From IMG/VR virus record IMGVR_UViG_3300030382_002866, positions 9,387 through 30,434 of that record: DNA of 21,048 nucleotides, one strand, 5' to 3'. The DNA comes from a virus. Positions 1,171 to 19,003 of the stretch are shown here, piece after piece (the stretch's first letter is position 1; the number at the start of each line of letters is the position of its first letter). The position numbers and the translations under genes were made by a program. The notes beneath the pieces were generated by a model. It was given only the letters and a program-made list of their open reading frames with translations, ran no database searches and was not told where the DNA came from.

Positions 1171-2891
1171 TATTAAAAGAATACGCATTTTCGTTAACTA
1201 ATCGTCACCATTTCTTCCCACCAAGCCAAGTATCCTCATTTTATAACATATCTTCTGATACATTCATGTCCTTATGGGATTATGATGAAGAAGTAGTTGA
1301 ACATGTGAAGGAAAAGAAAACCTTATCTGGATATAGAGGAAAGTTATATATGCCTGATGAATTTATATTTGATGTTGATGGAGCAAATATAAAACAAGCT
1401 AAAGATTTAACTCTTGCACTAATAAATCTATTAGACATTCCAGTACAAGTATATTTCTCTGGAGAGAAAGGATTCCATGTTCATATATCTGGTTCTGCAT
1501 TCAAATGGGAACCATGTAATGATTTGCATTTAAAGGTTAAACATATCTTAAAGAATAAAGGCATATATGATTATGCAGATCCGCTTGTTATAGATAGAGT
1601 AAGGTTAATTAGAATTCCTAATACTTTAAAGATAAATTCTGGATATTGGAAAGTTCCAATAAAGCAATCTGAAATCATGGATGTAGATGAGCATTGGTTA
1701 GATATAAATGCTGCAAGACCTAAAGATAACTTTAACTATGAAGAGTTAGAAACAGAACCTGTATTTGATGTGACTGTATCTCTTCCAAAAGCAAAGTTTG
1801 TTTCTCAGGGAAGAGCTTCTATCTCTAATGAATATATATGCATTCAAAGGATGATGGAAAATGTACCATATGGTTTCAGGCATAAAGCTGCATTAACTCT
1901 TGGATCTCATTTAAGAATAAGATTCCCAGAAGATGCTGTAAGAATATTCATGGAATATTGGAGAAGTAAAATATCTGTACTTGACAATCCATTTACTGAA
2001 GATGAGATGGAGAAGATAATGCATTCAGTGTATAATGCTAATAGTGGTGAAGGATATCATTTTGGATGTCATTCTGAAGTTAAAGATAGAATGTGTTCAC
2101 CTGAATGCAAACTATATAAAGCTAAGAAATCAATCAGTAATTATGAAGTAAGCGATCTTGAACAAGAGTTAATAAAATTCTATTCAACAGATCAAGTTCC
2201 ATTAGATATAGGTAAGATGTATGACCAACATTTTCCTATATATCCAGGTGAAACTGTACTTCTTACTGCTCCTCCAGAATCAATGAAATCAATGCTAATG
2301 TTAAATTGGCTGCTTGCTATCAAAAAACAATCATATTTTATGGAGTTTGAGATGTCAAGGAAGCAGGTAATTGAAAGAATAGCAATGATACATAATGGAT
2401 GGAATCAGGAAGATCTAAAGAATCATTACAAAACTGGTAAAAATGGAATGCCTAAGATGAGTCATATAAAGTTTGATTTCGAGCCTTGTTTTCCATGGGA
2501 GATAAAGAAGAAGCTTGATGTTATTAACTTTAAGCCAGAAGTAATATTCATAGACCATTGTGGATTAATGAAGTCAAGATTCAGAGATGAGATATCAAAA
2601 GATAAAGATATTTCTGAAAGCATAATGAATCTATCTAAAGATTTAGACTGCATTGTAATAGGAATATGGGAATTATCTAAGGATGCATTTAAGAATGGAA
2701 TAGATATATCAAGTCCATCAGGATCATTTAGGATATCTTATAATGCCAATAAGATATTAGCATTAAAGCCAATCAGGGGTAGTGAAGGTGTAATAAAACA
2801 TCTTGAACTCATTACTTTAAAGAATAGAGAACAAGAAAGACTCAATTGCAGGCTTGATGTAGATCAAAGAAAAAATGGCAGAATCATATAG
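1167..2891 (+). CDS. Primase-helicase: archaeo-eukaryotic primase domain fused to DnaB/RecA-like domain
   Basis: A 574-residue bifunctional replication protein. The N-terminal primase domain shows the metal-binding DVD (69-71), SGEKGFHVH (98-106) and RLIRIPN (146-152), matching the three AEP motifs for primer synthesis. A Cys cluster (C301, C310, C314, with H298 or H302) may bind metal between the domains. The C-terminal RecA-like domain follows the DnaB pattern: a P-loop position at 368-375, an EMSRKQVIERIAMI segment (395-408) and a Walker B-like FID (461-463). The P-loop is degenerate, APPESMKS: both glycines of GxxxxGKS are lost but Lys374 and Ser375 remain. It would unwind the fork and lay primers for a polymerase outside this window. 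The start overlaps the previous stop by 4 bases. Loss of ATPase activity, or a relaxed P-loop, cannot be decided here. Confidence 0.85.
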   Translation: MILKEYAFSLTNRHHFFPPSQVSSFYNISSDTFMSLWDYDEEVVEHVKEKKTLSGYRGKLYMPDEFIFDVDGANIKQAKDLTLALINLLDIPVQVYFSGEKGFHVHISGSAFKWEPCNDLHLKVKHILKNKGIYDYADPLVIDRVRLIRIPNTLKINSGYWKVPIKQSEIMDVDEHWLDINAARPKDNFNYEELETEPVFDVTVSLPKAKFVSQGRASISNEYICIQRMMENVPYGFRHKAALTLGSHLRIRFPEDAVRIFMEYWRSKISVLDNPFTEDEMEKIMHSVYNANSGEGYHFGCHSEVKDRMCSPECKLYKAKKSISNYEVSDLEQELIKFYSTDQVPLDIGKMYDQHFPIYPGETVLLTAPPESMKSMLMLNWLLAIKKQSYFMEFEMSRKQVIERIAMIHNGWNQEDLKNHYKTGKNGMPKMSHIKFDFEPCFPWEIKKKLDVINFKPEVIFIDHCGLMKSRFRDEISKDKDISESIMNLSKDLDCIVIGIWELSKDAFKNGIDISSPSGSFRISYNANKILALKPIRGSEGVIKHLELITLKNREQERLNCRLDVDQRKNGRII

Positions 2892-2903
2892 AAAGGAAAA
2901 ACA

Positions 2904-3629
2904 ATGAGTGAATTAACATTACATTGTGGAGCAGAGGAAGTATTATTAAGTGACCTTGATAAAGTTCCTTTGCCAGAAGAGACAAGAACATATAAGCCAG
3001 TATCTCATTTTGATTTGGTTAAAAATACAGCAGATATGGGAAATATGTTTCTTAAGAACCAAGGATATAAACTTGAAAGTCAGAATTATGCCCTTGGTAG
3101 AAAAGGAAATCATATGTTCTTTTGTCTAAACTATAAAAATGGTACTGAAGATGTAGGCTTAACTATTGGTGGTAGAAATAGTTATGATAAAAGCACTACA
3201 ATAGGTATTGCAGTTGGAATGAATGTATTCATCTGTGATAATCTATGCTTCAGGGGAGATCAAGTAACATACCTAAGAAAACATACTGGTAATGTATATG
3301 ATGATCTTGAAGTTATCTTAATGCGTACAATGAAGAATGCTGATACTGAATTCAAGAAAATGAATGATCAGTCAATGAAAATGAAAGACATTGAACTTAC
3401 TGATAATAATGCTTATAGACAATTAGGATTACTATTTGGTAAAAATATTCTTCTTCCAAGACAATTATCAGTTGCAAAGAGAGAGTGGGAAAAACCTACA
3501 CATGAAGCATTCAAAGAAAAGAATATGTGGTCTTTCTATAACGCTTGTACTGAAGCATTGAAATTGTCACCACCAAAAGAAGTGCTAACACGTCATGTTA
3601 AGCTGCATAAAGAATTAGCTGTAGCTTAA
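2904..3629 (+). CDS. DUF932-family phage protein
   Basis: A 241-residue protein. The central part (about 55-125) contains MFFCLNY, GGRNSYDKSTTIGIAVGMNVFICDNLCF, which matches the DUF932 pattern of a conserved N-S-H/Y-D-x-S-T segment followed by a strand and a 'C.N..' segment. DUF932 proteins are widespread in phages and plasmids, usually beside replication genes, and their biochemical role is not established. The start follows AGAAAGGAAAAACA, 12 bases after the primase-helicase stop, so they are one operon. The length is at the short end of what I expect for the family. Function in DNA replication or modification is inferred from context only. Confidence 0.7.
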   Translation: MSELTLHCGAEEVLLSDLDKVPLPEETRTYKPVSHFDLVKNTADMGNMFLKNQGYKLESQNYALGRKGNHMFFCLNYKNGTEDVGLTIGGRNSYDKSTTIGIAVGMNVFICDNLCFRGDQVTYLRKHTGNVYDDLEVILMRTMKNADTEFKKMNDQSMKMKDIELTDNNAYRQLGLLFGKNILLPRQLSVAKREWEKPTHEAFKEKNMWSFYNACTEALKLSPPKEVLTRHVKLHKELAVA

Positions 3630-3638
3630 TGAAAACTA

Positions 3639-3721
3639 TGAAGATAGAGAGTGGTTTTGAGCTGAACTCCTTGAGCAAAAAGTCAACTATGAGGTTCTCC
3701 TTTCTCCACTCTCTAACTTCA
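3639..3721 (+). promoter_or_regulatory. Aptamer-like folded leader (P1 stem)
   Basis: Bases 3639-3654 pair with 3706-3721 to form a stem of 5 + 9 bp with a 2x2 internal loop (TGAAG, AGAGAGTGG against CCACTCTCT, CTTCA). The enclosed 51 bases hold a possible TTTTG/CAAAA helix (3655-3659 with 3676-3680) and GAG/CTC hairpins. The 3' strand of this stem (3702-3709) can instead pair perfectly with 3733-3740, the 5' arm of the next, terminator-like hairpin. This is the layout of an attenuator or riboswitch. No known aptamer class is recognised. Confidence 0.5.
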
Positions 3722-3726
3722 GATAT

Positions 3727-3780
3727 AAAGGGGTGGAGAATGAGATTCTCGTAAAGGTTAACAACTCCACCTCTTTTATT
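3727..3780 (+). terminator. Terminator-like hairpin before the small-gene cluster
   Basis: Twelve pairs (11 Watson-Crick, one G-U) join 3727-3738 (AAAGGGGTGGAG) with 3765-3776 (CTCCACCTCTTT), followed by TATT. The 26-base loop includes a small GAG-ATT-CTC hairpin. The stem ends in a T-tract, as in an intrinsic terminator, and lies just before the ribosome binding site of the gene at 3793. It competes with the upstream leader for bases 3733-3738. Confidence 0.55.
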
Positions 3781-3792
3781 AAGGAAAACATT

Positions 3793-3978
3793 ATGGTAAC
3801 AGTTACAGTAAAATTAACAGAAGAAGAAATTGATACAATCTTTATGTATATTTCTAAAGGTATTATATCAGATAGATCTAAGCAATTAAAGAAGGACTTT
3901 CAAAAGATAAAAGATATAATTAAAGAAGCTAAAGAAGAAAGGATTAGAGGTTTACATGGAAAGCAATGTGAAGATTAA
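3793..3978 (+). CDS. Small helical protein of unknown function
   Basis: A 61-residue protein, first of the small-gene cluster behind the leader. A short beta-like start (TVTVKL) is followed by two lysine/glutamate-rich helices. I chose the ATG at 3793, which follows AAGGAAAA at good spacing, over an in-frame GTG at 3733, because that GTG lies inside the terminator-like hairpin and lacks an SD. The 3' end overlaps the next gene by 23 bases. No family is recognised; size, charge and position suggest an accessory early phage protein. Confidence 0.6.
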   Translation: MVTVTVKLTEEEIDTIFMYISKGIISDRSKQLKKDFQKIKDIIKEAKEERIRGLHGKQCED

Positions 3979-4554: not shown

Positions 4555-4842
4555 ATGACTGATTATGAAATAGGTGACTGGATAAAAGTAACAGATGAAG
4601 AAGATTACTATAATATTAAATCTATTGATTTAGATTCAGGTTATGTTGAAGTGCAAGATGTTGGTGGACATACTTGGTATACTGCTGTTAAGACCATTGA
4701 ACGTAAATGCAACAATGAGGAGATATATGGAGTAACTGAGAAAACAACAGCAGATGAATTTAATAAAGAACAGTATTCACATTTTGGAGATGATGAAGAA
4801 GATAATAATAAAATAAATACTAAACCACTAAATTGCAGTTAA
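4555..4842 (+). CDS. Small acidic protein with SH3/Tudor-like N-terminal half
   Basis: A 95-residue protein. Residues 4-50 read as a small beta-barrel (IGDWIKV, YYNIKSIDL, GYVEVQDV, TWYTAVKTIER), the pattern of SH3-like, KOW or Tudor folds. The rest is acidic and low in complexity (GDDEEDNNK). A strong SD, AAAGGAGG, overlaps the 3' end of the histone-fold candidate gene, so the two are co-expressed. Acidic SH3-like phage proteins can bind host polymerases or mimic DNA; a reader-like role for a modified protein is only speculation from the neighbouring SET gene. No family is recognised. Confidence 0.55.
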   Translation: MTDYEIGDWIKVTDEEDYYNIKSIDLDSGYVEVQDVGGHTWYTAVKTIERKCNNEEIYGVTEKTTADEFNKEQYSHFGDDEEDNNKINTKPLNCS

Positions 4843-5463: not shown

Positions 5464-5692
5464 TTATACTCAAACTACACGTTATTACGGATCTGCAAAT
5501 GATAAGAGTTTTACAGTTGAGTGTTACTATGATAGTAATTCTGATCATTGGGAAATTAGACAAATTACGTGGATCACTGAAGATTTGAGTACACTGCCTA
5601 AAAAGAGGGTAGAAGGGAAGATTAAAGATTTTGTAAGTAAATGGTTATTTGATAAACCAAAGGAAGAAGAGGAAGAAAATGGGACTGTTTAA
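5438..5692 (+). CDS. Unknown beta-rich protein with acidic tail
   Basis: An 84-residue protein overlapping the end of the SET gene by 26 bases. I chose ATG 5438 because GAGG lies six bases upstream; ATG 5453 is a weaker alternative. The N-terminal half alternates strands (RYYGSANDKSFTVECYYD, HWEIRQITWI), and the C-terminus is a helix ending in KEEEEENG. The acidic run also supplies the purine-rich SD of the next gene. No family is recognised. Confidence 0.55.
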   Translation: MIHIEMEDNYTQTTRYYGSANDKSFTVECYYDSNSDHWEIRQITWITEDLSTLPKKRVEGKIKDFVSKWLFDKPKEEEEENGTV

Positions 5693-5903
5693 AGACTTAA
5701 CAATAGATACGATAGACCATGATAGATTTAATAATATAGTAAATGATCTTGATGGTGGAACACAAACAGATGAAGAGTTCTGTAAAGTATTCACAAAGAA
5801 AGTATTCAAATTATTTGGCACTAAATATACTTCTAAAGGTATAGTTGAAGAATATGAAGACAGATATGTGGATAGTAAACTAAATAGATTAAGAGGAAAA
5901 TAA
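5679..5903 (+). CDS. Unknown small protein before the large RNA
   Basis: A 74-residue mixed-charge protein with no recognised domain. ATG 5679 follows GGAAGAAGAGGAAG and is preferred over an in-frame ATG at 5649, which would extend the protein by ten basic residues inside the upstream gene. The gene overlaps the preceding one by 14 bases. It ends eight bases before the first helix of the large folded RNA, so the two probably lie on one transcript. Confidence 0.55.
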   Translation: MGLFKDLTIDTIDHDRFNNIVNDLDGGTQTDEEFCKVFTKKVFKLFGTKYTSKGIVEEYEDRYVDSKLNRLRGK

Positions 5904-5910
5904 AAATTAA

Positions 5911-6380
5911 TGGCTCTCAAGATATTAGCCCCTCCATACGGGCAAAACAGTATAAGGTCGGTTTAGCCACCACTGTTAAGGTTCCTATACGAATGGAAAT
6001 GAAACCTGTCATACATGGCGGACAGGCACGAGAGCCAAAATTGAGGGGATATAACAGTTTGATGAAATCATAAGTGAATTGAATTGTTAGGTTGGCACCA
6101 ATATCCCCGATTTTGGATCATGTAGAGGGAGCTGCGTTAAGCAGAGTAGTGGAGAGTCAAAGGACTCGTAGGCCGTGGTGGGGTAGGTTGAAAAACACTA
6201 CCCGTGTACACATGATCCAATAACTATGAACAAATACACCGATGAGCTCCTAGGAGCAAAAATGCTAGGCAGTACAGGTCTGAAACGGACGTAATAAGAT
6301 ATCACCCTGTATACATGCCAGATTATAAACACACACGGTTAACATCTTGATTGCGAGATGAGGGGCTAATATTTGTTCAT
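5911..6380 (+). ncRNA. Large ornate structured RNA (ROOL/GOLLD-like in character, class unassigned)
   Basis: The only gene-free stretch over 300 bases. Four consecutive domains are each closed by a perfect helix: A 5911-5918/6030-6037 (8 bp), B 6045-6052/6101-6108 (8 bp), C 6113-6123/6210-6220 (11 bp), D 6226-6236/6370-6380 (11 bp). Inside are perfect hairpins: in A 5946-5951/5972-5977, 5982-5985/5995-5998 and 6005-6010/6021-6026; in B 6053-6059/6082-6088; in C 6132-6135/6141-6144, 6154-6158/6163-6167 and 6181-6186/6198-6203; in D 6268-6271/6316-6319, 6273-6278/6306-6311 and 6343-6349/6354-6360. A perfect 13 bp helix, 5922-5934/6360-6372, ties domain A to the end of D and makes the whole a pseudoknotted unit. 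No ORF, tRNA or terminator is seen. It is richer in G+C than its flanks. It probably lies within the + operon. The strand is inferred from neighbouring genes and from G-U pairs. Confidence 0.85.
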
Positions 6381-6400
6381 TTAATTAGAAAGGAATATCA

Positions 6401-6730
6401 ATGTCACTAAATGATCCTACAGATAAAAATATATACCAGTTCATGTCTCTTGGTACAAGTAGATTTAGTCATGGAAGAATACTTCTTGAAGATTGGGATA
6501 AAGTTATCACAATAAAGAATGGTTGTTACATGCAATTTGAAATAAATAAACCATCTAAGAGAGATCCTAATCCACAAATAAGTATTATACTAAAAGGTGG
6601 AAACTGGAGTATAGATGATAAGATCAGTAAGACTGCAAAGAGTTCACTTACAGCAAGAGCTGGCAGTAGACTAACACTTGGTATAATTGATCATAACTTA
6701 AAAGGAGAAGAAGATGGCATCACCGAGTAA
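6401..6730 (+). CDS. Unknown protein downstream of the large RNA
   Basis: A 109-residue protein with SD AGAAAGGAATATCA, starting 20 bases after the last RNA helix. Its middle is strand-rich (KVITIKNGCYMQFEI, QISIILKGGNW) and the C-terminus is helix-strand (SSLTARAGSRLTLGII). It overlaps the nuclease gene by 17 bases. No family is recognised. It could be a partner of the nuclease or of the RNA, but only adjacency suggests this. Confidence 0.6.
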   Translation: MSLNDPTDKNIYQFMSLGTSRFSHGRILLEDWDKVITIKNGCYMQFEINKPSKRDPNPQISIILKGGNWSIDDKISKTAKSSLTARAGSRLTLGIIDHNLKGEEDGITE

Positions 6731-7254: not shown

Positions 7255-10081
7255 ATCTTAAATATGCATCAATACTTTTAACTGCTGCAGCATAACTAGG
7301 AGATAATTCTCTTAACAATTTTTCTCTTTCTCTTTTAACTGACCTAGATACATAAGCTTTAGTTCCAGTAGCCTTTCTTGCAAACTTCATAAAACTATCT
7401 GAAGATTCTTGAGCTTCTTTATCAGCAAAAAGACCAGTTTCAGTTAAAAAACTTCTCATATAATGTTTATTCAATAAAGCTTCCCTTGTATGAAACCATG
7501 TTCTAGCTCCCTGTAAATTAACTAACCTAGCTAATCTATAGTTTCTATCCATGTCATTAATATTTTCTACTGGTGATATATCATTTGTTATTCCAAGAAT
7601 TGCAAGTCTATGACTATGATCAATTTTCATCATATTAAAAATTTCCATTGTTTCAAGAAAAGCACCAAAAGTAGGTCCAAGCTCTCCAAGTTCTCCTTTG
7701 CCATATAAAGCTCTTTCAGCTTTTTTCCGACCTTCCTTAGTACCTCTGTCAGCAGTCCAATAATCAAAATATCCTTTTATCCATTCATAGGAATCATTTT
7801 GAAATAAATTTGTAAAACCAATACCTAAAGCTGCAGTAAGACCACCTGATATTGAATAAGCTATACCTAACCTGTATAACCTTAATGCTTCATACTCAGC
7901 AAGCCCACCAGATTTTATCCTTCTAAGTCCAGATTTTATCCAGTTCCATTGCATATCTATATTAGAAAATCTATACTGCTTGTACTGTCCTATAACTGAA
8001 CCTACTGGACCTTTTATAAGTTTAGGTTTTTGAATTGTAGAATATTCATAATGTATATCAATAACCTTATTATAAGCCATTTCACCAGCAGCTCTGTTTA
8101 TCCAGGACTTTCTCTCTGCATCAGTAGCAGACTTTTTTCCTATTTCCTTACTTATAAACCATTCTGGTAACTCAGATAAATTTTTATGCACAAGCCCATA
8201 AGCAGTTGTAAAAGCATGCCTTCTTATGACATCTTCTACACTTCTATGCATATAAGCACCTACATCAGCAACCTTATCTAATACTCTTAATGTTTTATCA
8301 AACAAAGTTTCATTAACAATCATTATCTTACCATCTACTTCAGCCATACCAGGTGGCAATGCAGTACTTTCTCTTGTACCTCTGGTAGCTGCAGCAGTAT
8401 TATAACTCTTTGTTAAATTCTTTATAAAAGAATCATCTGTTTTCCAGTATAAACCATGTCTTTCAATAGAATCAGTCATGGCATTCTCAATGTCTTTATT
8501 GCCTTGTATATATGCTCTAGCTATCTTGGGAGCTCTAAATCCTAGATCCATATACTCAAAAAACTTCTGAGTATAATTTCTTGCTGGACTTCTAACATTA
8601 TAACCCATAGTTCTAATAAACCCCAATGAAGTAGCAAACCTTGCCAGTCTTTTAGATCTAGTATTTTGTTGACTGTTAGTAATTACAGATTCTTCAGCTA
8701 TATTGAGTAAGGTACCTATAGCTTCATCTGCAAATTTCATTACTTGTTCACTTTCCAAAGTATTATGACGTTTAGCAAATTCTTTGCTCTTTATTAAGCT
8801 ATCAAAAGCATTAGCTAAAACAGTCTCAACCGACCTTTTATAATTATACCTTGTTATATCATGAATGTACTGAGATATAAAGAATAGAGGGTTCCTTGAA
8901 TAATATTCCTCTGCCTGCTCACCTCTTGATTTTAACCTATCAATAAAAGATCTATCACTAGATAAAATCTGATCCTTGAATTTCTCAGTTGCAGTCATCT
9001 TCATATCTGGACTGTCAGCTTCCATCCAATCGTGAAAAACCTCAAGATGCTTCATCATAGTTAAGATCTGGTGAGGCATATAGCCCTCTTTACGAAGCCT
9101 TTTCCCAGATTCGCCTACTTCAGCAAGCTGCTGATCATTTAAATCATATCTTTTATCATTAACAGATTCATTTGTAAATTCAAGCTCTTTAATTTTGCTC
9201 TCTATGGTATCAAGAAATTTTTCAAGACCTCTTGCACTGTTTTCTCTCATATCCAATCTTTTAGCAAAATCTCTTTCCATCCTTAAAGCATTTAATGCAA
9301 CAATTGATAAATCTTTCCTTGAATCAATCCAAGCACCTTGAATTGATTTAGCTATCTTCTTTTGAGAAGCAGTCCACGGAACAGCATTGCCATCAGGAGT
9401 AGATTTTCTTAAACCATCGACATCTGCTCCCTGTAGTATATCTGCTATACCATAAAATAGATCACCAGCCACTGTTCTTGTTCTAATACTTCCTTTTGAC
9501 TGTAATTCCTTTTGTATTTCATTATAAATATTATTTACTTCTTTTGGATCAGTAGTAGACATAATCAAAGATTCAAGCTTTGCAAGTGTACTTGTATCTA
9601 CATCAAAATGTTTTCTACTGGCTAAATCTTTCATACCTTTTTGTATCTTACCTAGATTTATTTGGGCATTTTGCTTGTGTCTTCTTTCATATGAAACCAC
9701 GTGCAACAAATCTCTATAAGTCTCTTCCCCACCTGGAAGTATTTTCAGTTTCTGAGGAAGCAGCTTCCATGAATGAAATGCAGTCTCATACCCTCTCTCA
9801 ATAGATCTTGTCCATTCTTTCATATACTTCTCAAACACTCTAACATCACTCATTGTAGGCTGATGCAATTCAAAGTTCTTACCAGTAGCCTGCTGGAACC
9901 TTTCATTGAATATTTCTGCATCATTGTGCCATCCAAATTTCTTCAAAGTAGCATTATTTGTAAAATGCTTATCTTTTGCTTCTGTAAGCCTAAGATCAAC
10001 TCTATCTATCTCCTTATCACTAAGATCTGGATAAAGATTTTTAGCACCACTGCAATACATCCAATTTCCTGATATAGGCAT
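7253..10081 (-). CDS. Large virion or DNA-ejection-type protein (942 residues)
   Basis: A long, mostly alpha-helical protein with many charged helices and few cysteines. The middle holds RTMGYNVRSPARNYTQKF, similar to the 'G.N..S...N.TQ' segment seen in very large phage internal and polyvalent proteins. Farther on comes VGSVIGQYKQYRFSNIDM and a hydrophobic, glycine-rich segment (YSISGGLTAALGIGF) that could insert in a membrane. I infer an internal virion protein ejected with the DNA. It has the only strong SD in the - block (AAAAGGAG, 10088-10095), so it may be translated at a higher level than its neighbours. It is last in its operon. No enzymatic motif is recognised; a structural or pseudo-enzymatic partner of the giant protein is possible. 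Confidence 0.6.
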   Translation of the reverse strand: MPISGNWMYCSGAKNLYPDLSDKEIDRVDLRLTEAKDKHFTNNATLKKFGWHNDAEIFNERFQQATGKNFELHQPTMSDVRVFEKYMKEWTRSIERGYETAFHSWKLLPQKLKILPGGEETYRDLLHVVSYERRHKQNAQINLGKIQKGMKDLASRKHFDVDTSTLAKLESLIMSTTDPKEVNNIYNEIQKELQSKGSIRTRTVAGDLFYGIADILQGADVDGLRKSTPDGNAVPWTASQKKIAKSIQGAWIDSRKDLSIVALNALRMERDFAKRLDMRENSARGLEKFLDTIESKIKELEFTNESVNDKRYDLNDQQLAEVGESGKRLRKEGYMPHQILTMMKHLEVFHDWMEADSPDMKMTATEKFKDQILSSDRSFIDRLKSRGEQAEEYYSRNPLFFISQYIHDITRYNYKRSVETVLANAFDSLIKSKEFAKRHNTLESEQVMKFADEAIGTLLNIAEESVITNSQQNTRSKRLARFATSLGFIRTMGYNVRSPARNYTQKFFEYMDLGFRAPKIARAYIQGNKDIENAMTDSIERHGLYWKTDDSFIKNLTKSYNTAAATRGTRESTALPPGMAEVDGKIMIVNETLFDKTLRVLDKVADVGAYMHRSVEDVIRRHAFTTAYGLVHKNLSELPEWFISKEIGKKSATDAERKSWINRAAGEMAYNKVIDIHYEYSTIQKPKLIKGPVGSVIGQYKQYRFSNIDMQWNWIKSGLRRIKSGGLAEYEALRLYRLGIAYSISGGLTAALGIGFTNLFQNDSYEWIKGYFDYWTADRGTKEGRKKAERALYGKGELGELGPTFGAFLETMEIFNMMKIDHSHRLAILGITNDISPVENINDMDRNYRLARLVNLQGARTWFHTREALLNKHYMRSFLTETGLFADKEAQESSDSFMKFARKATGTKAYVSRSVKREREKLLRELSPSYAAAVKSIDAYLR

Positions 10082-10183: not shown

Positions 10184-13100
10184 TTATAAACCTGGCTGCC
10201 TGCAACGTCTTTCTCTCTCTTTCTTCTCACTAAATAATTGATCTATAGTTTTCTTAAGTTCAGTTCCCTTCTTGCCATGCTTTCTCACTAATATTGGATT
10301 AGAATTTGAACTCTCTCCTATTGTAAACATATTAGCTCCACCCCTAGCACCTATTATTTTTCTTGATATCCTAGCCATATCAAATGGAGTAATTAATCTG
10401 TCACCATTTATAAATTGATTTATCATAGACATAGCATTATTAAACTCATGTTCTTTTCCTTTAACTAAATTATCAGGCCTAAGAATATTCTTATCAATAT
10501 CAACAAGTCTCTTACTCATGTTTGATAAATAAGATGCAGTCCTTGTGGAAGCAATGTCAACATTAGTGTAAGGGTCAGTTAACCCATAATATACAAGAGC
10601 ATGTTTTCTAGATAATTCCAGTATAATATTGTTTGCTTCCTCTGATGTCATAACATTATCTTTTGAAAAAGACTGTCTTTCTCTTACGTCAGTCAAGTAA
10701 CTGTATATAGTTTTAGATATCTTTTCATTCTCAGTAAATTTATAATCATATGCAAACTTGCCATTACTCTGCCTAACTACATAAGTATTCTGATCAATCT
10801 CTGGAGTCATTAACTTAAATATAAATGATCTTCTCTTTAGTGGATCATTCAAACCATATCTATTACCAATATCATTCAAAAACAAATGTAATAATGTCTT
10901 TCTATCATTAGCTAATTGTACTCCATCTCTATGCACACCCCACTCTCTGCCTACCTTTCCATACTGACCTGTAAAATTTAAATAAGCAGGTATTACAGAA
11001 CCATCATACTGAAGCTTATTCATAGAGACTACCTTTCCTCCACCTGAAACCATTTCAAGCAAAGGCTTTCCATAAGCAACCCATTTTTCTCTTAACCTAT
11101 CTTGCCTCTTTGCTGGAGAAAGATCAAATTTCTTTCCTCCCCTTACTATAATATCGCTAGGGCTTATAGCCTTTTGATTTGTTTCACCCTCTCTTATGAC
11201 CTGCTGAATATTTTTACCCCTGCTATCCCAAACAACCCAGTCCTCACCATAAGCAGTCTGCTTTCCTTCAGCTCTACCCTGTGAAAATCTAAATACATTC
11301 TCAAGCCTTTGTGCAGATATCTTAGAACCTGCTAAAAGCTCAAGCTCTATCTTAAGATTAGTATAATACTCAACACTATTTGCAGCCTTTTCTATGTCAT
11401 ACGGATTAGAATATTGACTTGCCTTTAATCTAGCAAGCTCACCTTCAAGACTTGACAGCCTATCAGATACCATAGCCAATTGAGCTAATGTTCCCTCATC
11501 CTTAACCATTTTAAAAATCTTATCACTTACACTGCGAATATTAGTTGGATCCTGAGGTAAGCTTTGACTCTCTCCTTGAAATATTAAAGTTTCTATAGCA
11601 GTTTCTCGACTTGCTCCATGTCTTTTAACCCGCAGAGCAGCATCATAAGAACTTGACAATGACCTCATTGAAATCTCAAAAGGATTATTACTTTCATTTG
11701 TTATGAATTTATATAATCTATTTTTACCAGTTGTCAAGTCTATTTTATATCCCTCTATATCTAATATCTTATCTCTCTGTGTTCTGCCAGTCCAGTAAGC
11801 ATTCTTAACACCAGACCATCCAGTAAAAACATCCTTCAATGTCATCTTACTTTTAATATCAGCATCAGTAAGCTCACCCCTGTTATAAGTTAGATACTTA
11901 TTAAGAGGACTTACAATCTCCCTGTATAATGTTTCTGCCACTAAATCTCCACCTACTTTGCCATCTAATCTTTTTTGATTGACACCTTCACCAACAAACT
12001 CAAACAATCCTTCAAACTGAGTGATAGGCTCACCATTAACTATTTTCTCCTTTCCAAACAAAATATCCCTGATAAAATTATCTATACCAGGAGAGAATCC
12101 TTTCTCTGTTCGCACATCTATAATATCTCTATAATTATCTAAAAAATACTTTACTGTCTTAGATATATTTCCTACAACATCAATATATTCTCTTCTGCTC
12201 TTCATCTTAATCAAAACTTGCTTATTATTAATAATCATCTTTCCAAGAACTCCACCTTCATCTAAAGCATTCATAAGATAAGTTGATATCTGGTGAAGCT
12301 TTACAAACCTACCACGCAATGCACTAGTATTATTAACATCTTTAAACCAATCTCTCATACCAGCTTGATCACCCATATCAAGTTGAACCTTTTTAATTAA
12401 TGACTCTGAATACTCTACAGGATCATTAATAATTCTAGCTCCAGCCATTGTAGCAACTTCTTTAATAAAATCAGGAGGTGCTGTACTATAAACATTTGAC
12501 TTATCAAAATCATGATCAGCATCCTGCCTTAAAACATCAACAGAATTCTGCCTTGTGCTATTACCTTCTCTCTCATCATAATGATTCCAGATAGGATTCT
12601 CTTCAGTACCAATATTTTCTCTGTGTACCTTATTTACAATAACATCAAAAGCATTTCTTGGCTGCCTTGTATTCATCACACCCATCCACATATTATCTCT
12701 TAAGGCACCAGTCTCATCAACTAAAGAAGCTAACCTATCAAGCATTTTCTCGTTGGTAGCTCCCTCAGTCTCCCAAAATGTTCTCAGCTCTTTAATATCA
12801 TTTTCTATAGCCTCATAGACTTCCTTGTTTCCTTTCTTTTGTTCAGCCAATAATTTAGGAAGCTTACCCTTAATAATATCTATGAAAGTTCCATCTTTTT
12901 TAAGTTCCATCCCCTCAACAATAACAGTAAAACCTTTCTTTTCATTAGGTATAATAACAAACTCAGATTTACTATTTTTAGATATAACAGGATTAAAAAA
13001 GCTATGCCTTGCTATGAAAAATCCAGTTACATTTTTATTTTTATCTCCATTTACAGGAAATTCATTATGAGTAGACCTACCTAAGGCTTTAAAAGGCATC

Positions 13101-16100
13101 TGGGCTATGTCACTATTTATCCCAAACCCACCGTATATCCTTTGTCTTCCTATGTTATCTTCACCTTCATAAAGTACAGGCAAATCTACATTCTTGTCTG
13201 CAAGGAAAGGAGCCATAGGACTATAAGAAGATCCTTTAACTTCCCTTGATGCAATCTTAGAACCTTGAAAGTACCTGCTAAACAAGTTATCAACTACCAA
13301 ATCTCCCATCCAATCACTTACAACTACACCTTGGCTATCAAGAAAAGAATCCAAAGCTGTTCGTGCTGGATTTAAATCTCCCTCAGTCCTTGCCATATCT
13401 GATAAACTTCTTCCTATTCCAGTAAGAGCTTCAGGAGAATCTTGAAGTTTTCCCATTAAATTCCCAAACTCTGAAACATGGTCACCAATCTGAGTCCAGT
13501 CATGCAATCCACTCTTATTAGAATAATGAACTCCAGTATTAGAACCAACAGTACCTGTATGAGGAACAGATACTTGTGTAAGATTGTATGCTTCCCATGG
13601 TGCTTCTGTTACACCAGTACCATCTCTCGCAGAATCTATTGTCCATAACATTATCTCTTCTATGCTTGCAGCATCAACCTCTCCCCTTCTGGTAATAGGT
13701 TCAACATAGTTTGGTTCAAGATTTCCCCCTGGTACTCTACTGACATTAATTTTATTACCAGACTTAAACTTTACTTCATCTAATTTAGCATCATCTAAAG
13801 CCTCACCTATCTTAGGATCATAAAAAAATGCTGTCTTATCATAAGAAACTTTTAAGCTGCCATCTTCCCTTATCTGTATGTCAACACCCTTTGGTTTCAT
13901 AGAACCAACATTAAATCCTACAATTTCTCCTGCCTCATTAAGCTGAATCAACTCCCTGCTTGGAGCAAAAGTACCTAAAAATCTCAAGAAAGCAGACTTA
14001 CTTAAAAATGTAGGGGAATCAGTTACCTCTTTACTGATAGATTCAATAAACTGCTCCATCTTATCTCTATCTACATCCATCATTATATCCTCATCATACA
14101 TATCTAATCTTTTTCTAAATCTGTCAATAACAGACAACACTTCTCCACTATCATCTATTGATATACTTCTCATTGGTCTTAATACACCATTCTCATCTCT
14201 CATGCCCCTATAAGAGTCAGCAAGTCTAACTGCAAGACTACTACCAGTTTCTGCAGCCACAAGATCATAGAACTCAGTCAATGCATTATGATATCTATCA
14301 TTTAAAATTTTACCACTACTAATATCAGCAAGCTTTCTTCTCTTCATATAGTCAAGCTCTTGAACTCTTTCCAATCCAGTTCTTCCACCATCTATAAGTA
14401 AAGATGGCTGATTTAAGATATTCCAGGCTTCATTAATACCATCTTTCAAAAGATCAACAGTCATATCAGGAGTTCTAAATCTCTGTAGAAAATCTCTTGC
14501 TGCCCTAGTATTAGCACCATATATTGCACCAACAAGTTCAGATAAGATACCACCTTCTGCATATGCAGCCTTAACAGATCGCTCTGCTAAGTCTTTGCTT
14601 ACTACTATTTGTGTCTGATCATTTAAAATTACCCTTATCATTGGCACTGAATCTGGAGAAATCTCTGCTATAAGATTTTCCTTCAATGTCTGTTTAAGGT
14701 ATTCATTCCTCACGGTCTTTGATTCAATGCCTATACCAGCTTCAATCTGTCCATCTATAGTAGACATTATACTATCATCAAATGTTCTCAGATCCCTTGC
14801 AACCTCTTCTCCCTCCATAAGAAACTTTACATCTTTTTGAAGCTCATACCAACCTTCTCCATTTCCAAACAAGATATTCTTAAGCCCTGTAAGACCTCTC
14901 CCATCGCCTGCTCTTTGCACAGGAAGTCCAACCTTATCAGATATAAACATACCACCATCAAAACCACCAACATATTTAACTCTCTTTACATCATCTGAAA
15001 AAGCTTTAGCAGAAACTAACTGCCATGCATCATTATATATCTGCTCAATACCACCCCTCTGGACAATATCTGGTGGCTCTTTATCTCTTGCATTTACAAG
15101 ATCAGTAACAGCTCTAATTATAGGTAAATTCCCAACAATATCATTAGCAGTCTTACCTCCTAAAGCTTTATCTATAATACTCTCCTGATCAGAAGTACGA
15201 ACTCCATAATCAGACTCAAACTTTTGAGGAGTAGTATTTATTCTTAACACATGCTCTCTTGTATATATATCATATGTACTTTTCTTAATCTGCTCATCCA
15301 CATATGCTGATATGTTCTCATAGCCTAAAACTTTGGCTCCTAACATCTCCTTTGCCTTAGCTATTACATTTACTAATTCTTGTCTGTATAATTCATCAAC
15401 TATATTTCCTTTATCCCTATCAATAACATCCATCAAATCTCTTTTTTGAAATCTCTCAAGACTTTCCATAAGAGATGAAGTTTCTTGAAGCTTCATATTT
15501 ATAAGAGCATCATAATCCCTAGTATCAATAAGATGCTTAATATTAGCTCTTAATGTTCCCATATTTTCTATAAGATCTTTCAAGCTTCCACTAAGACGTG
15601 TATCAAAATCTCTCATTTCTCCATAATCTTTTATATACTTATCATTATCACTCCCTATCTTATTCATAAAGGCTTCCAGATTTATATAACCATTATGCAA
15701 ATCACTTACATGTCCTATATGTGAAAATAGTCTTGCAGTGCTAAGTATATTTCTAACATTAACTGCTCCACCAGCATCTTTAACTAGTCTAGCAATATTA
15801 TTAACATCATTAGTTATATTAAATTTACCAGAAGCAGCACTTATGCCTGATTGAAAGTCAGAATAATAATCCATTAACTTATCTAAGTTCACTTCCTGTA
15901 AATCAGGAGATGCTTTCAAGATATCAAACAACGCCTTAGAGTCTGGTATTTCTATTGTACCTTCTCTTCTTATAACCAGTCCACCATATCTAGACAGATC
16001 TCCAATACTTGTACCGCTAGGAGCAACACCACCGTTCATCATAACAAGCAGACTAAATTTTAATTGCTGATCCCTATGTATGCTCTGTATGTCAAGAGTA

Positions 16101-19003
16101 TTAACCATATGATCAACAGACTGGCTTAAGAGTCTTTCATATGCAGCATCATGATCAAAAATATCACCTAATTTATTCCTAATATGCTCTCTTGCAATTG
16201 AAATTGTCTCCAATGTTACAGTTTTATTAGTAGGCTTATTCATATTCTTATTACCAGTCAGAATATTATGAACATTCTGAACTCTGGAATGAAATTGTGA
16301 AAGTTCAGTAACCCTTGCTGCATCTATCTTGGTATCTAACTCACCTGGACCAAACTCAGCTATCACTCCTTCATTTAATTGTAATGAAGATAATTGCCTA
16401 TCTAATAGCTCAACATCAGTTTCAGATAAGCTTGTGAATAATTTTTTTCTGGTAGAAGCTGATGAATTCATGAACAAAACATTGTTTGTATCCATATCAG
16501 TCTTTGTAACATTATAGGCTATCCACATATTATTATCATGTAAAATATTCCTATCATGCATCATGGTATCCCTACCATATGTATTGTCATTCATCAATCC
16601 GACAAATTGTTTATATCCTTTTTCAACACTTTTCAATTCAGTATTACTCAAAGTCTTCATCTCCCTTGGAGGTGGACCTTCAACAATAAGCCATCCATTT
16701 GCCATACCTTCTTCAATAAACTTTGCATGTGTAGCTTTTAAAGACTGTAATTCTGGAGATGGTCTTGACCCAAGTAATTTCTCAATATCAATTTTTGGCA
16801 GTCTAAGTATACCTGTTGTTGGATCATACTTACCTGAGGTATCTATTCCAATGCTCTCATAAAAATCAGTCATAGCTCTCATCTGTAGATCTATAAATCT
16901 TTCATTGGCAGTGTTACCAGACTGCAATTCAACTTGTCTTAACCATACTTCAGGATTCGTCTTGTGTTCTTTGATACCAGGTATATCATTGATCCTGCCC
17001 ACAATTTCCAATGCCTCACCAGGAGTTACATGCCTCATTACACGTCCAATATCAGTAGCATTATTATCATAGTGAGCAATCACCTGCATTGCAATTCTTA
17101 ACTTGGCACTCTGTACAGGATCTCCTGTTACATCAATAACTGATTCGTAAGCTTCATTTAATGGTTTTGCTCCTTCTATTACTGCTGAATCCTCAGCTAC
17201 AACAAACTTATCCCTAAGAATATCATCTACTATCTTATAATCACCACTATTAATTAAAGAACGACCCCTGTACTCCACAACAGCAGGATTAATATCAAGA
17301 CCATTGCCTCTTGATTTATATCCCATCATTTCAAGTCCATGCCTCACAGCTTTTATCTTTTTAATGTTAGCTGTGTAATACTGCTTTAACTCCCCTGTCT
17401 CAATAAATCTTGACTGTTTTGCACTAGTACTGCCTTCACCAAAAGTCCTTCCAGATTTAGCAAAGACCATCCCAACTATCATATTAGATACTATTTCTGT
17501 TGGGTCGGCACCAAATGCTCCAACTATAGAAAACTTACCAGTATCATCATAATACTGCTTAATAGCAGGAAGATTCATAGCTAATGCACCAGCTATCATT
17601 CTTGGAGAAGCACCCCATAAATCTTTTCTGATCTCTGTTCCCATATAACCAAGCCATTCCCTGGAAAAATCTTTCCTAACCTTCTGAAGCATAGGTATAG
17701 CTTCTTCCTTTGTCAGATCTCCTATCTTCTTACCAAGCAATTCCTTGGATAATACATTAGACTTTAAAGCTCCCCCAGAAACATCATCTATAAGCTGTAA
17801 TGTAGTTCTTGCTTGTTCACCTGCCATTCTATTTGCAGGTTTCCATGCTTTTCTTAAAGTATTCAATCCAGACAAAGCTTCCTTATGAAGTTTAGACCCA
17901 GCTCTACCTCCCTTTAGAAACCTGGTTGGTGCAATCAATGACATCCATAATCCAGACTTACCAGAATGCTTAAGAGTCTCCATAAAACCTGAATTTAAAT
18001 TCTCAAAATGCTTTAATTCTTTTTGATCAAACTCCCCACCTAAAATTTCACCAGTTTTATAAGTTATATTCTCAACAGCAGCTTGAGCTAAATGATGTGT
18101 AAATCCTAAAGCTGCATCACTTGCCATAGCAGATATCAATTGACCTGTTTTTCCAGTTAGAGTCCACTCAGCAGCTCTTCCAGCAACACCAGGACCCTTT
18201 GCTGTCCATGCAGCAGCCCTTCCAATCAATCCATCCATGTAATTATGAAATTGATGAGTAGAATATTTCATGGAAGAAGATATAAGATCATCTGACAACT
18301 TCATTGCAGACTCAAGTCCCATGTCAGGCATCTCACCAAGTAATTTACGACTTAGGTCATCTACAGCAGAAGTATATGCTTCTTGACTGTGTTTCCAAAG
18401 TCTCTTATATCCAGGAGACCTAACTATTTTAGTAGCCTCCCTCATAGCAGCCAGAGTACCTCTCTCAAGACCTTCTAAAGCAAGATCATCAACCTCACCT
18501 GCTGCTAACTTATCACCATACTTTGTTAAAAGCTCAATACCCCTTTTCTCACCAAACTTTTCTACTGCTTCAGTACCTGCTTTTCTTGCTATATATGTAC
18601 CTGTCTTATTTGTTGCTGTTCTTGTAAGAAGCTTACTAAGTAAACCAAGACCCTTAGCAGTCCAGCTAAATGTAGCCAACATTCCTAAGCCTTGTCCTGC
18701 TATATATCCAACCTTACCAGCTCCAGTCTGTTCTTCCCATGGCTTATATGTACCAAGAGCAAGAGCTGATCTTCCTTTTTTACCAGTTTCTGTTAATGCA
18801 GCTACATCTAATGCTCCCCATGATGCAGAAGAAAGAGCCCCCCATGAAAGATTTCCAGCAAAATCCATCATCATACTGCTCTCATCCTCATCAGTTACAT
18901 AATCAGCCTGCATCTGCTGATTATATAATTCTAGCATCTTTTCTTTATATTCTCTGCGTTTCCTAGCTTCTTCGGATTCAATATATGTATTACCGTTACT
19001 CAT
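10184..19003 (-). CDS. Giant virion protein with two-barrel RNA polymerase catalytic motif (2939 residues)
   Basis: A single uninterrupted 8.8 kb gene. The N-terminus (about 44-125) is glycine/alanine-rich with hydrophobic stretches (GKVGYIAGQGLGMLA), as in ejected virion proteins. Near the middle-to-C-terminal third, NTRQP (2111-2115) is followed 50 residues on by QDADHDFDKSNVY (2160-2172). This mirrors the RxP element and NADFDGD loop of RNA polymerase beta-prime, and more closely the DxDxDK loop of crAss-like phage polymerases; D2163, D2165 and D2167 would hold the catalytic Mg. REVKGSS (1920-1926) may belong to the partner barrel. Known: the crAss-like phage phi14:2 packages such an enzyme. 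Inferred: this protein enters the cell and transcribes early genes. The remainder is helical and unassigned. Alternative: a structural ejection protein with a chance motif. Confidence 0.6.
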   Translation of the reverse strand: MSNGNTYIESEEARKRREYKEKMLELYNQQMQADYVTDEDESSMMMDFAGNLSWGALSSASWGALDVAALTETGKKGRSALALGTYKPWEEQTGAGKVGYIAGQGLGMLATFSWTAKGLGLLSKLLTRTATNKTGTYIARKAGTEAVEKFGEKRGIELLTKYGDKLAAGEVDDLALEGLERGTLAAMREATKIVRSPGYKRLWKHSQEAYTSAVDDLSRKLLGEMPDMGLESAMKLSDDLISSSMKYSTHQFHNYMDGLIGRAAAWTAKGPGVAGRAAEWTLTGKTGQLISAMASDAALGFTHHLAQAAVENITYKTGEILGGEFDQKELKHFENLNSGFMETLKHSGKSGLWMSLIAPTRFLKGGRAGSKLHKEALSGLNTLRKAWKPANRMAGEQARTTLQLIDDVSGGALKSNVLSKELLGKKIGDLTKEEAIPMLQKVRKDFSREWLGYMGTEIRKDLWGASPRMIAGALAMNLPAIKQYYDDTGKFSIVGAFGADPTEIVSNMIVGMVFAKSGRTFGEGSTSAKQSRFIETGELKQYYTANIKKIKAVRHGLEMMGYKSRGNGLDINPAVVEYRGRSLINSGDYKIVDDILRDKFVVAEDSAVIEGAKPLNEAYESVIDVTGDPVQSAKLRIAMQVIAHYDNNATDIGRVMRHVTPGEALEIVGRINDIPGIKEHKTNPEVWLRQVELQSGNTANERFIDLQMRAMTDFYESIGIDTSGKYDPTTGILRLPKIDIEKLLGSRPSPELQSLKATHAKFIEEGMANGWLIVEGPPPREMKTLSNTELKSVEKGYKQFVGLMNDNTYGRDTMMHDRNILHDNNMWIAYNVTKTDMDTNNVLFMNSSASTRKKLFTSLSETDVELLDRQLSSLQLNEGVIAEFGPGELDTKIDAARVTELSQFHSRVQNVHNILTGNKNMNKPTNKTVTLETISIAREHIRNKLGDIFDHDAAYERLLSQSVDHMVNTLDIQSIHRDQQLKFSLLVMMNGGVAPSGTSIGDLSRYGGLVIRREGTIEIPDSKALFDILKASPDLQEVNLDKLMDYYSDFQSGISAASGKFNITNDVNNIARLVKDAGGAVNVRNILSTARLFSHIGHVSDLHNGYINLEAFMNKIGSDNDKYIKDYGEMRDFDTRLSGSLKDLIENMGTLRANIKHLIDTRDYDALINMKLQETSSLMESLERFQKRDLMDVIDRDKGNIVDELYRQELVNVIAKAKEMLGAKVLGYENISAYVDEQIKKSTYDIYTREHVLRINTTPQKFESDYGVRTSDQESIIDKALGGKTANDIVGNLPIIRAVTDLVNARDKEPPDIVQRGGIEQIYNDAWQLVSAKAFSDDVKRVKYVGGFDGGMFISDKVGLPVQRAGDGRGLTGLKNILFGNGEGWYELQKDVKFLMEGEEVARDLRTFDDSIMSTIDGQIEAGIGIESKTVRNEYLKQTLKENLIAEISPDSVPMIRVILNDQTQIVVSKDLAERSVKAAYAEGGILSELVGAIYGANTRAARDFLQRFRTPDMTVDLLKDGINEAWNILNQPSLLIDGGRTGLERVQELDYMKRRKLADISSGKILNDRYHNALTEFYDLVAAETGSSLAVRLADSYRGMRDENGVLRPMRSISIDDSGEVLSVIDRFRKRLDMYDEDIMMDVDRDKMEQFIESISKEVTDSPTFLSKSAFLRFLGTFAPSRELIQLNEAGEIVGFNVGSMKPKGVDIQIREDGSLKVSYDKTAFFYDPKIGEALDDAKLDEVKFKSGNKINVSRVPGGNLEPNYVEPITRRGEVDAASIEEIMLWTIDSARDGTGVTEAPWEAYNLTQVSVPHTGTVGSNTGVHYSNKSGLHDWTQIGDHVSEFGNLMGKLQDSPEALTGIGRSLSDMARTEGDLNPARTALDSFLDSQGVVVSDWMGDLVVDNLFSRYFQGSKIASREVKGSSYSPMAPFLADKNVDLPVLYEGEDNIGRQRIYGGFGINSDIAQMPFKALGRSTHNEFPVNGDKNKNVTGFFIARHSFFNPVISKNSKSEFVIIPNEKKGFTVIVEGMELKKDGTFIDIIKGKLPKLLAEQKKGNKEVYEAIENDIKELRTFWETEGATNEKMLDRLASLVDETGALRDNMWMGVMNTRQPRNAFDVIVNKVHRENIGTEENPIWNHYDEREGNSTRQNSVDVLRQDADHDFDKSNVYSTAPPDFIKEVATMAGARIINDPVEYSESLIKKVQLDMGDQAGMRDWFKDVNNTSALRGRFVKLHQISTYLMNALDEGGVLGKMIINNKQVLIKMKSRREYIDVVGNISKTVKYFLDNYRDIIDVRTEKGFSPGIDNFIRDILFGKEKIVNGEPITQFEGLFEFVGEGVNQKRLDGKVGGDLVAETLYREIVSPLNKYLTYNRGELTDADIKSKMTLKDVFTGWSGVKNAYWTGRTQRDKILDIEGYKIDLTTGKNRLYKFITNESNNPFEISMRSLSSSYDAALRVKRHGASRETAIETLIFQGESQSLPQDPTNIRSVSDKIFKMVKDEGTLAQLAMVSDRLSSLEGELARLKASQYSNPYDIEKAANSVEYYTNLKIELELLAGSKISAQRLENVFRFSQGRAEGKQTAYGEDWVVWDSRGKNIQQVIREGETNQKAISPSDIIVRGGKKFDLSPAKRQDRLREKWVAYGKPLLEMVSGGGKVVSMNKLQYDGSVIPAYLNFTGQYGKVGREWGVHRDGVQLANDRKTLLHLFLNDIGNRYGLNDPLKRRSFIFKLMTPEIDQNTYVVRQSNGKFAYDYKFTENEKISKTIYSYLTDVRERQSFSKDNVMTSEEANNIILELSRKHALVYYGLTDPYTNVDIASTRTASYLSNMSKRLVDIDKNILRPDNLVKGKEHEFNNAMSMINQFINGDRLITPFDMARISRKIIGARGGANMFTIGESSNSNPILVRKHGKKGTELKKTIDQLFSEKKERERRCRQPGL

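Follow-up and report, generated by a model that had tools for sequence, protein, structure and literature searches.

GOLLD (RF02032) is a single RNA, often longer than 800 nt, that forms a 14-mer cage, and ROOL (RF03087) is a large ornate phage RNA to which no function has been assigned (PMC12286853). The pistol ribozyme (RF02679) is compact and has been found close to phage genes (PMC4604425). That phage intergenic DNA can contain structured RNAs has a precedent in the wcaG, manA and PhotoRC-II motifs of marine phages, which were found by comparative genomics and lie in the potential 5′ UTRs of genes of recognisable classes (PMC2864571).

The DNA analysed here (the window, 21,048 nt) comprises bases 9387–30434 of G000, a 30,434-base IMG/VR virus contig. 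G000 is tailed-phage-like, encoding a terminase small subunit, a DnaB-like helicase-primase and a RusA/PDDEXK-like nuclease. The source is an uncultured virus of bacteria, and no close relatives of G000 were found in a cultured-phage collection. A gene finder that uses dicodons and had been trained on these phages placed no gene between 5903 and 6401, which leaves a gene-free gap of 497 nt. The original prediction regarded this as the only gene-free stretch of the genome. It is indeed the sole large gap in the window, but G000 has three more, of 509, 744 and 760 nt, further upstream. The gap is preceded by a gene whose product begins MGLFKDLTID (5679–5903, + strand), a homolog of which also lies 5′ of the RNA slot in the relative G009. 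It is followed by p6401 (6401–6730, + strand), a gene of unassigned function that starts 20 nt past the last structured domain. In G009 p6401 is missing from the corresponding place, and the last structured domain is followed by a RusA/PDDEXK-like gene; a search with the p6401 protein as query found no relatives. Elsewhere in the window, 10184–19003 on the − strand encodes a 2939-aa protein that takes up nearly one third of the contig and for which PHROGs gave no convincing match.

The gap had been predicted to contain four consecutive domains with closing helices of 8, 8, 11 and 11 bp, and these helices are present exactly where they had been placed. The domains, named D1–D4, are separated by linkers of 4–7 nt. 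The fold energy of 5904–6400 was −145.7 kcal/mol (z = −3.9), and none of 100 shuffles was equally stable. Neither a chain of four successive helices of 8 bp or more nor two helices of 11 bp or more arose in 2000 dinucleotide shuffles of the gap region, which agrees with the earlier view that nested helices of this kind are not a product of chance.

Neither GOLLD nor ROOL was matched in the window by the Rfam models, as had been anticipated. With a GOLLD cut-off of 150 bits (conserved 3′ domain), no match was obtained in the window or in G000; the identical search detected GOLLD above the cut-off in G009 (181 bits; L185 11445–11859) and G021 (2604–3013; 173 bits), just under it in G014 (7908–8338; 148 bits) and below it in G018 (1065–1513; 85 bits). 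The link to GOLLD thus holds at the level of the lineage, in which relatives carry a true GOLLD RNA in another gap. Like GOLLD, the locus studied here would be a phage-encoded structured noncoding RNA locus, but GOLLD is a single RNA with many members longer than 800 nt, whereas the 497-nt gap holds four separate modules of 64–155 nt. ROOL was likewise absent from the window and from the 50 related records searched, a weak negative, as the record-level search matched no control genome. The pistol ribozyme was detected in the relative G003 (18437–18501, equal to L005 2843–2907) with 62.5 bits against a cut-off of 34.5 bits, as a compact RNA inside a 931-nt noncoding stretch; there was none in G000, and D1–D4 each gave no match. 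More generally, none of the 4227 Rfam families matched the modules at gathering or permissive thresholds, be it in the window, in the whole of G000 or in relatives. BLASTN with the whole region and with D4 gave no match in phage and plasmid collections, and we found no description of the modules in the open-access literature. The earlier suggestion of a possibly new class is in line with these searches.

Homologs were sought in 2.2 Mb of related IMG/VR phage DNA, in contigs gathered via helicase and nuclease. Which contigs were matched differed from one part of the gap to another. Module D4 (6226–6380, + strand) is closed by an 11-bp helix (6226–6236/6370–6380) and contains an inner ACCG/CGGT helix (6238–6241/6336–6339) and a hairpin (6343–6360). 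A covariance model, R1, built from six sequences scored the window D4 at 153.7 bits and yielded ten matches, eight of them distinct; the homologs are in L148, L104 (=L055), L137, L139, L162 (=L183), L182 and L092. Among the members the closing helix is almost wholly rewritten while the strands between the helices are fixed apart from small variations: CACCGATGA, AAATGCT (with one AAATTGCT variant), ACACGGTTA and AGGGGCTA, the last of which is found in all eight distinct sequences. Two-sided changes were seen in 13 of 26 pairs (eight sequences) and in none of 500 shuffles to that extent, a count that, here and below, is not a probability, the alignments having been built with structure in mind. 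Standard pairs made up 96.9% of the pair cells, and sliding the partners by 1–3 columns left at most three two-sided pairs. Of 50 related records searched over their full length, four had D4, and scanning all of IMG/VR for the core sequence of the module retrieved nine contigs. A Yersinia match to the core pattern (L176) was not recovered by R1.

Module D3 (6113–6220, + strand) has an 11-bp closing helix (6113–6123/6210–6220) around a core that reads AGAGGGAG, a hairpin with the loop GTKAA, GTGG, an optional hairpin, GTGGTGG, another hairpin and CRTGTAC. The D3 model, R2, scored the window at 101.6 bits, L009 at 97, L050 at 84.5 and L137 at 69.4; it matched three of 51 records, the window's own included, and L137 in addition. 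Two-sided changes were present in 13 of 20 pairs (four sequences, three of them independent) and were not reached in any of 500 shuffles. For this alignment a large inserted hairpin was cut from a closely similar pair among the four sequences, because the insertions made the MAFFT alignment wrong.

Module D1 (5911–6037, + strand) is closed by an 8-bp helix (5911–5918/6030–6037). Its conserved strings are GATATYAGCCC, CTATACGA and GAAACC, followed by the hairpin CCTGTY-ATACRTGGCG-RACAGG. Homologs were found in L148 (5132–5306) and in L217 (~2330–2430, − strand; = L215), whose 9-kb contig has D1 and lacks D4 and D3. Seven of 14 pairs changed on both sides among three sequences, which 2 of 500 shuffles reached; slid versions gave at most two. 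A match to the D1 pattern in L216 sits in a GC-rich coding region and was rejected as chance.

Module D2 (6045–6108, + strand) has an 8-bp closing helix (6045–6052/6101–6108) and a long inner hairpin, together with the hairpin GGU-UGGC-ACC, which reads GGUU-GGCR-AACC in relatives. nhmmer found homologs in L092, L162, L009, L011 and L094. As insertions made the MAFFT version wrong, D2 was aligned by hand, and in this alignment of six sequences, which has no shuffle control, 7 of 15 helix columns showed two-sided change.

In all three tests run with the tool (D4, D3 and D1) the slid controls dropped to background. Compensatory changes support helices of all four modules, for D2 by the hand alignment, in keeping with the earlier proposal that the region is RNA; the pairing, the absence of which in homologous phages had been named as grounds against it, is conserved there. 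Judged by these alignments, each module is a conserved predicted RNA fold with compensatory changes around conserved junction or loop sequence. We class D1–D4 as four candidate new RNA families within a broad known kind, phage structured noncoding RNA. They are rare and patchy in distribution.

The most unusual feature of D1–D4 is their shuffled modular arrangement. Every module has homologs, alone or in other combinations. The window has the order D1-D2-D3-D4, and G009 (the contig of L092) has D2-D4 right after the homolog of the MGLFKD gene. L148 has D4 and then D1. In L162 the order is another element, D4, another element and D2. L009 has D3 and D2, which lie apart. Each module is thus seen without one or more of the others, and the combination and order of these predicted folds vary even after the same upstream gene. 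D1 and D3 appear to be gained or lost as units that leave D2 and D4 intact. The original prediction of one four-domain RNA class does not fit these observations, as each domain forms its own family. Since the domains occur separately, and since G009 has just D2 and D4 after the same upstream gene, a cage-forming giant RNA of all four domains, which had also been considered, is unlikely.

We think it probable that the gap is an operon slot holding four independent and interchangeable RNA modules, self-contained cargo rather than one large RNA. On this reading, a slot in a phage operon has been filled head to tail with D1–D4, four families that would have gone unrecognised until now. The modules would be transcribed within the operon transcript, and each would be a self-contained RNA that either processes itself or targets molecules of the host or the phage in trans. 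Such slots would serve as cargo bays, comparable gaps in relatives containing GOLLD or pistol. RNAs that are catalytic or that recognise one specific partner commonly keep their junctions conserved and their stems free to vary. Taken together with the varied downstream genes, these properties favour autonomous cargo RNAs.

A different possibility is that one or more modules, above all D4 and D3, work in cis as leaders of the following gene, be it as riboswitch-like elements or as switches of translation. The junction strands are much more conserved than the stems, and D4 ends shortly before a start codon: 20–21 nt in the window and L092, which have a GGA-type ribosome site, and 17 nt in L182. 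This spacing also suits 5′-leader control and is a counterpoint to the preferred reading. However, the genes after D4 are unrelated. At least four kinds were seen (p6401, the RusA/PDDEXK-like gene, a C-x2-C protein and another unassigned one), and in L162 and L148 an RNA module follows instead. D4 has no one consistent downstream gene class, in contrast to wcaG, manA and PhotoRC-II with their recognisable classes of genes, and Rfam found no sequence relation to these motifs. In the window, 180–292 nt and further modules separate D2 and D3 from the next gene. The varying downstream gene makes control of a single neighbour less likely, and overall we regard cis-acting leaders as unlikely.

Alternatively, some modules may be self-cleaving ribozymes of new types that cleave the polycistronic transcript, the presumed role of pistol in the comparable noncoding stretch of G003. 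Compact multi-helix folds with conserved junctions would fit this, and D4 resembles a hammerhead in part. The hammerhead core is CUGANGA-[stem II]-GAAA, and D4 has CCGAUGA-[hairpin]-AAAA(U). But every D4 sequence has C as its second core base, and the order of helices around a cleavage site is not recognisable; as Rfam gave no match either, D4 was rejected as a hammerhead. All known ribozyme families in Rfam were unmatched by the modules, and for these reasons a ribozyme identity seems to us a rather poor prospect.

The whole 470-nt cluster could also be a single large ornate RNA, perhaps joined by pairing between its ends. The linkers of only 4–7 nt are compatible with this, as is a 13-bp perfect complement that the original prediction had missed: ATATTAGCCCCTC in D1 (5922–5934, + strand) is perfectly complementary to GAGGGGCTAATAT in D4 (6360–6372, + strand), GATATTAGCCCC facing GGGGCTAATAT. 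In L148, where the order and spacing of the two modules are changed, about 10 of 11 complement positions are still able to pair. Taken alone the complement is weak evidence, because 73 of 2000 shuffles of the region (3.7%) also contain some 13-mer complement. Each motif is conserved in its own family, and pairing between the two can be examined in two genomes only. No sense-strand copy of the D1 motif was found in the DNA searched from six D4 genomes. We therefore rejected the D1 complement as a general reason for the invariant AGGGGCTA of D4, and the same genomes argue against a single RNA, as do G009, with D2-D4 and neither D1 nor D3, and the other modules that occur singly or in other orders. 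A single large RNA is thus very unlikely, although in this phage the complement could mean that the whole cluster acts as one unit. A D1-D4 pairing would cross the D1 closing helix, forming a pseudoknot, or act between molecules. D1 and D4 may, speculatively, interact through GAUAUUAGCCCC/GGGGCUAAUAU, and we consider the complement no more than suggestive. Lastly, DNA-level mobile inverted repeats (MITE-like) with incidental RNA folding would account for perfect inverted repeats at the borders and for modules that come and go as units, but can hardly be credited given that internal helices covary too (the D4 hairpin, D3 P2 and P4, the D1 hairpin), that the modules have a single orientation, the strand of the neighbouring genes, wherever inspected, and that no target-site duplication was seen at the D1/D3 junctions relative to G009.

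If the slot does hold autonomous RNA cargo, one small region would contain four new RNA families with covariation support, and in the intergenic DNA of this lineage compact RNAs would be gained, lost and rearranged as whole units, next to GOLLD and pistol. The purpose of ornate phage RNAs would become testable with parts of 64–155 nt instead of RNAs of 600–800 nt, and phage genomes could be searched for RNA cargo modules besides single large RNAs. A bolder extension, which we put forward as doubtful, is that the lineage maintains a shuffling repertoire of structured RNAs, with cargo consisting of RNA instead of protein genes, and that D1–D4 are four new functional classes, at least one of them a new ribozyme or host-targeting RNA, with D1 and D4 joined as an RNA-RNA pair by their conserved complementary motifs.

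Intergenic DNA between same-strand genes from twelve contigs of the lineage was folded in 250-nt pieces. The mean z was −1.98 for the sense strand and −1.12 for the reverse complement (paired test of sense vs antisense, p = 1.5e-8), and matched coding pieces had a mean z of −0.66. Sense-strand structure is thus a feature of intergenic DNA across the lineage, which speaks for the preferred reading of the gap. The 744- and 760-nt noncoding stretches of G000 have just scattered pieces in common with G001, the helicase of which is 97% identical, and appear to turn over fast. The 760-nt stretch (L014 3921–4680, upstream on the window's contig) has z of about −3 per third and no Rfam match, and contains two tRNA T-arm-like strings, GGTTCGATTCC near 3962 and GGTTCGAATCC near 4559. 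In our reading, GOLLD of G009 and this unrelated stretch of G000 occupy the same gene neighbourhood. The 509-nt noncoding stretch (L014 1517–2025) lies between divergent genes and has 64–79% identity over much of its length to many relatives, with the conserved strings TATCGGAGAAAAC, CTAGGGTACC and TTTTAGTGTGTGG; it is perhaps a control region or another RNA. In L162, two more helix-closed elements flank D4 at 1085–1215 (GAGTATAGGT...ACCTATACTC) and 1405–1590 (GGGCTTGG...CCAAGTCC), which are likely further module types. Small intergenic elements with a closing helix were also seen in the window at 822–918 and 3627–3789 (z −4.7 and −4.1), and in several relatives the gap 5′ of the helicase holds a helix-closed element of differing sequence.
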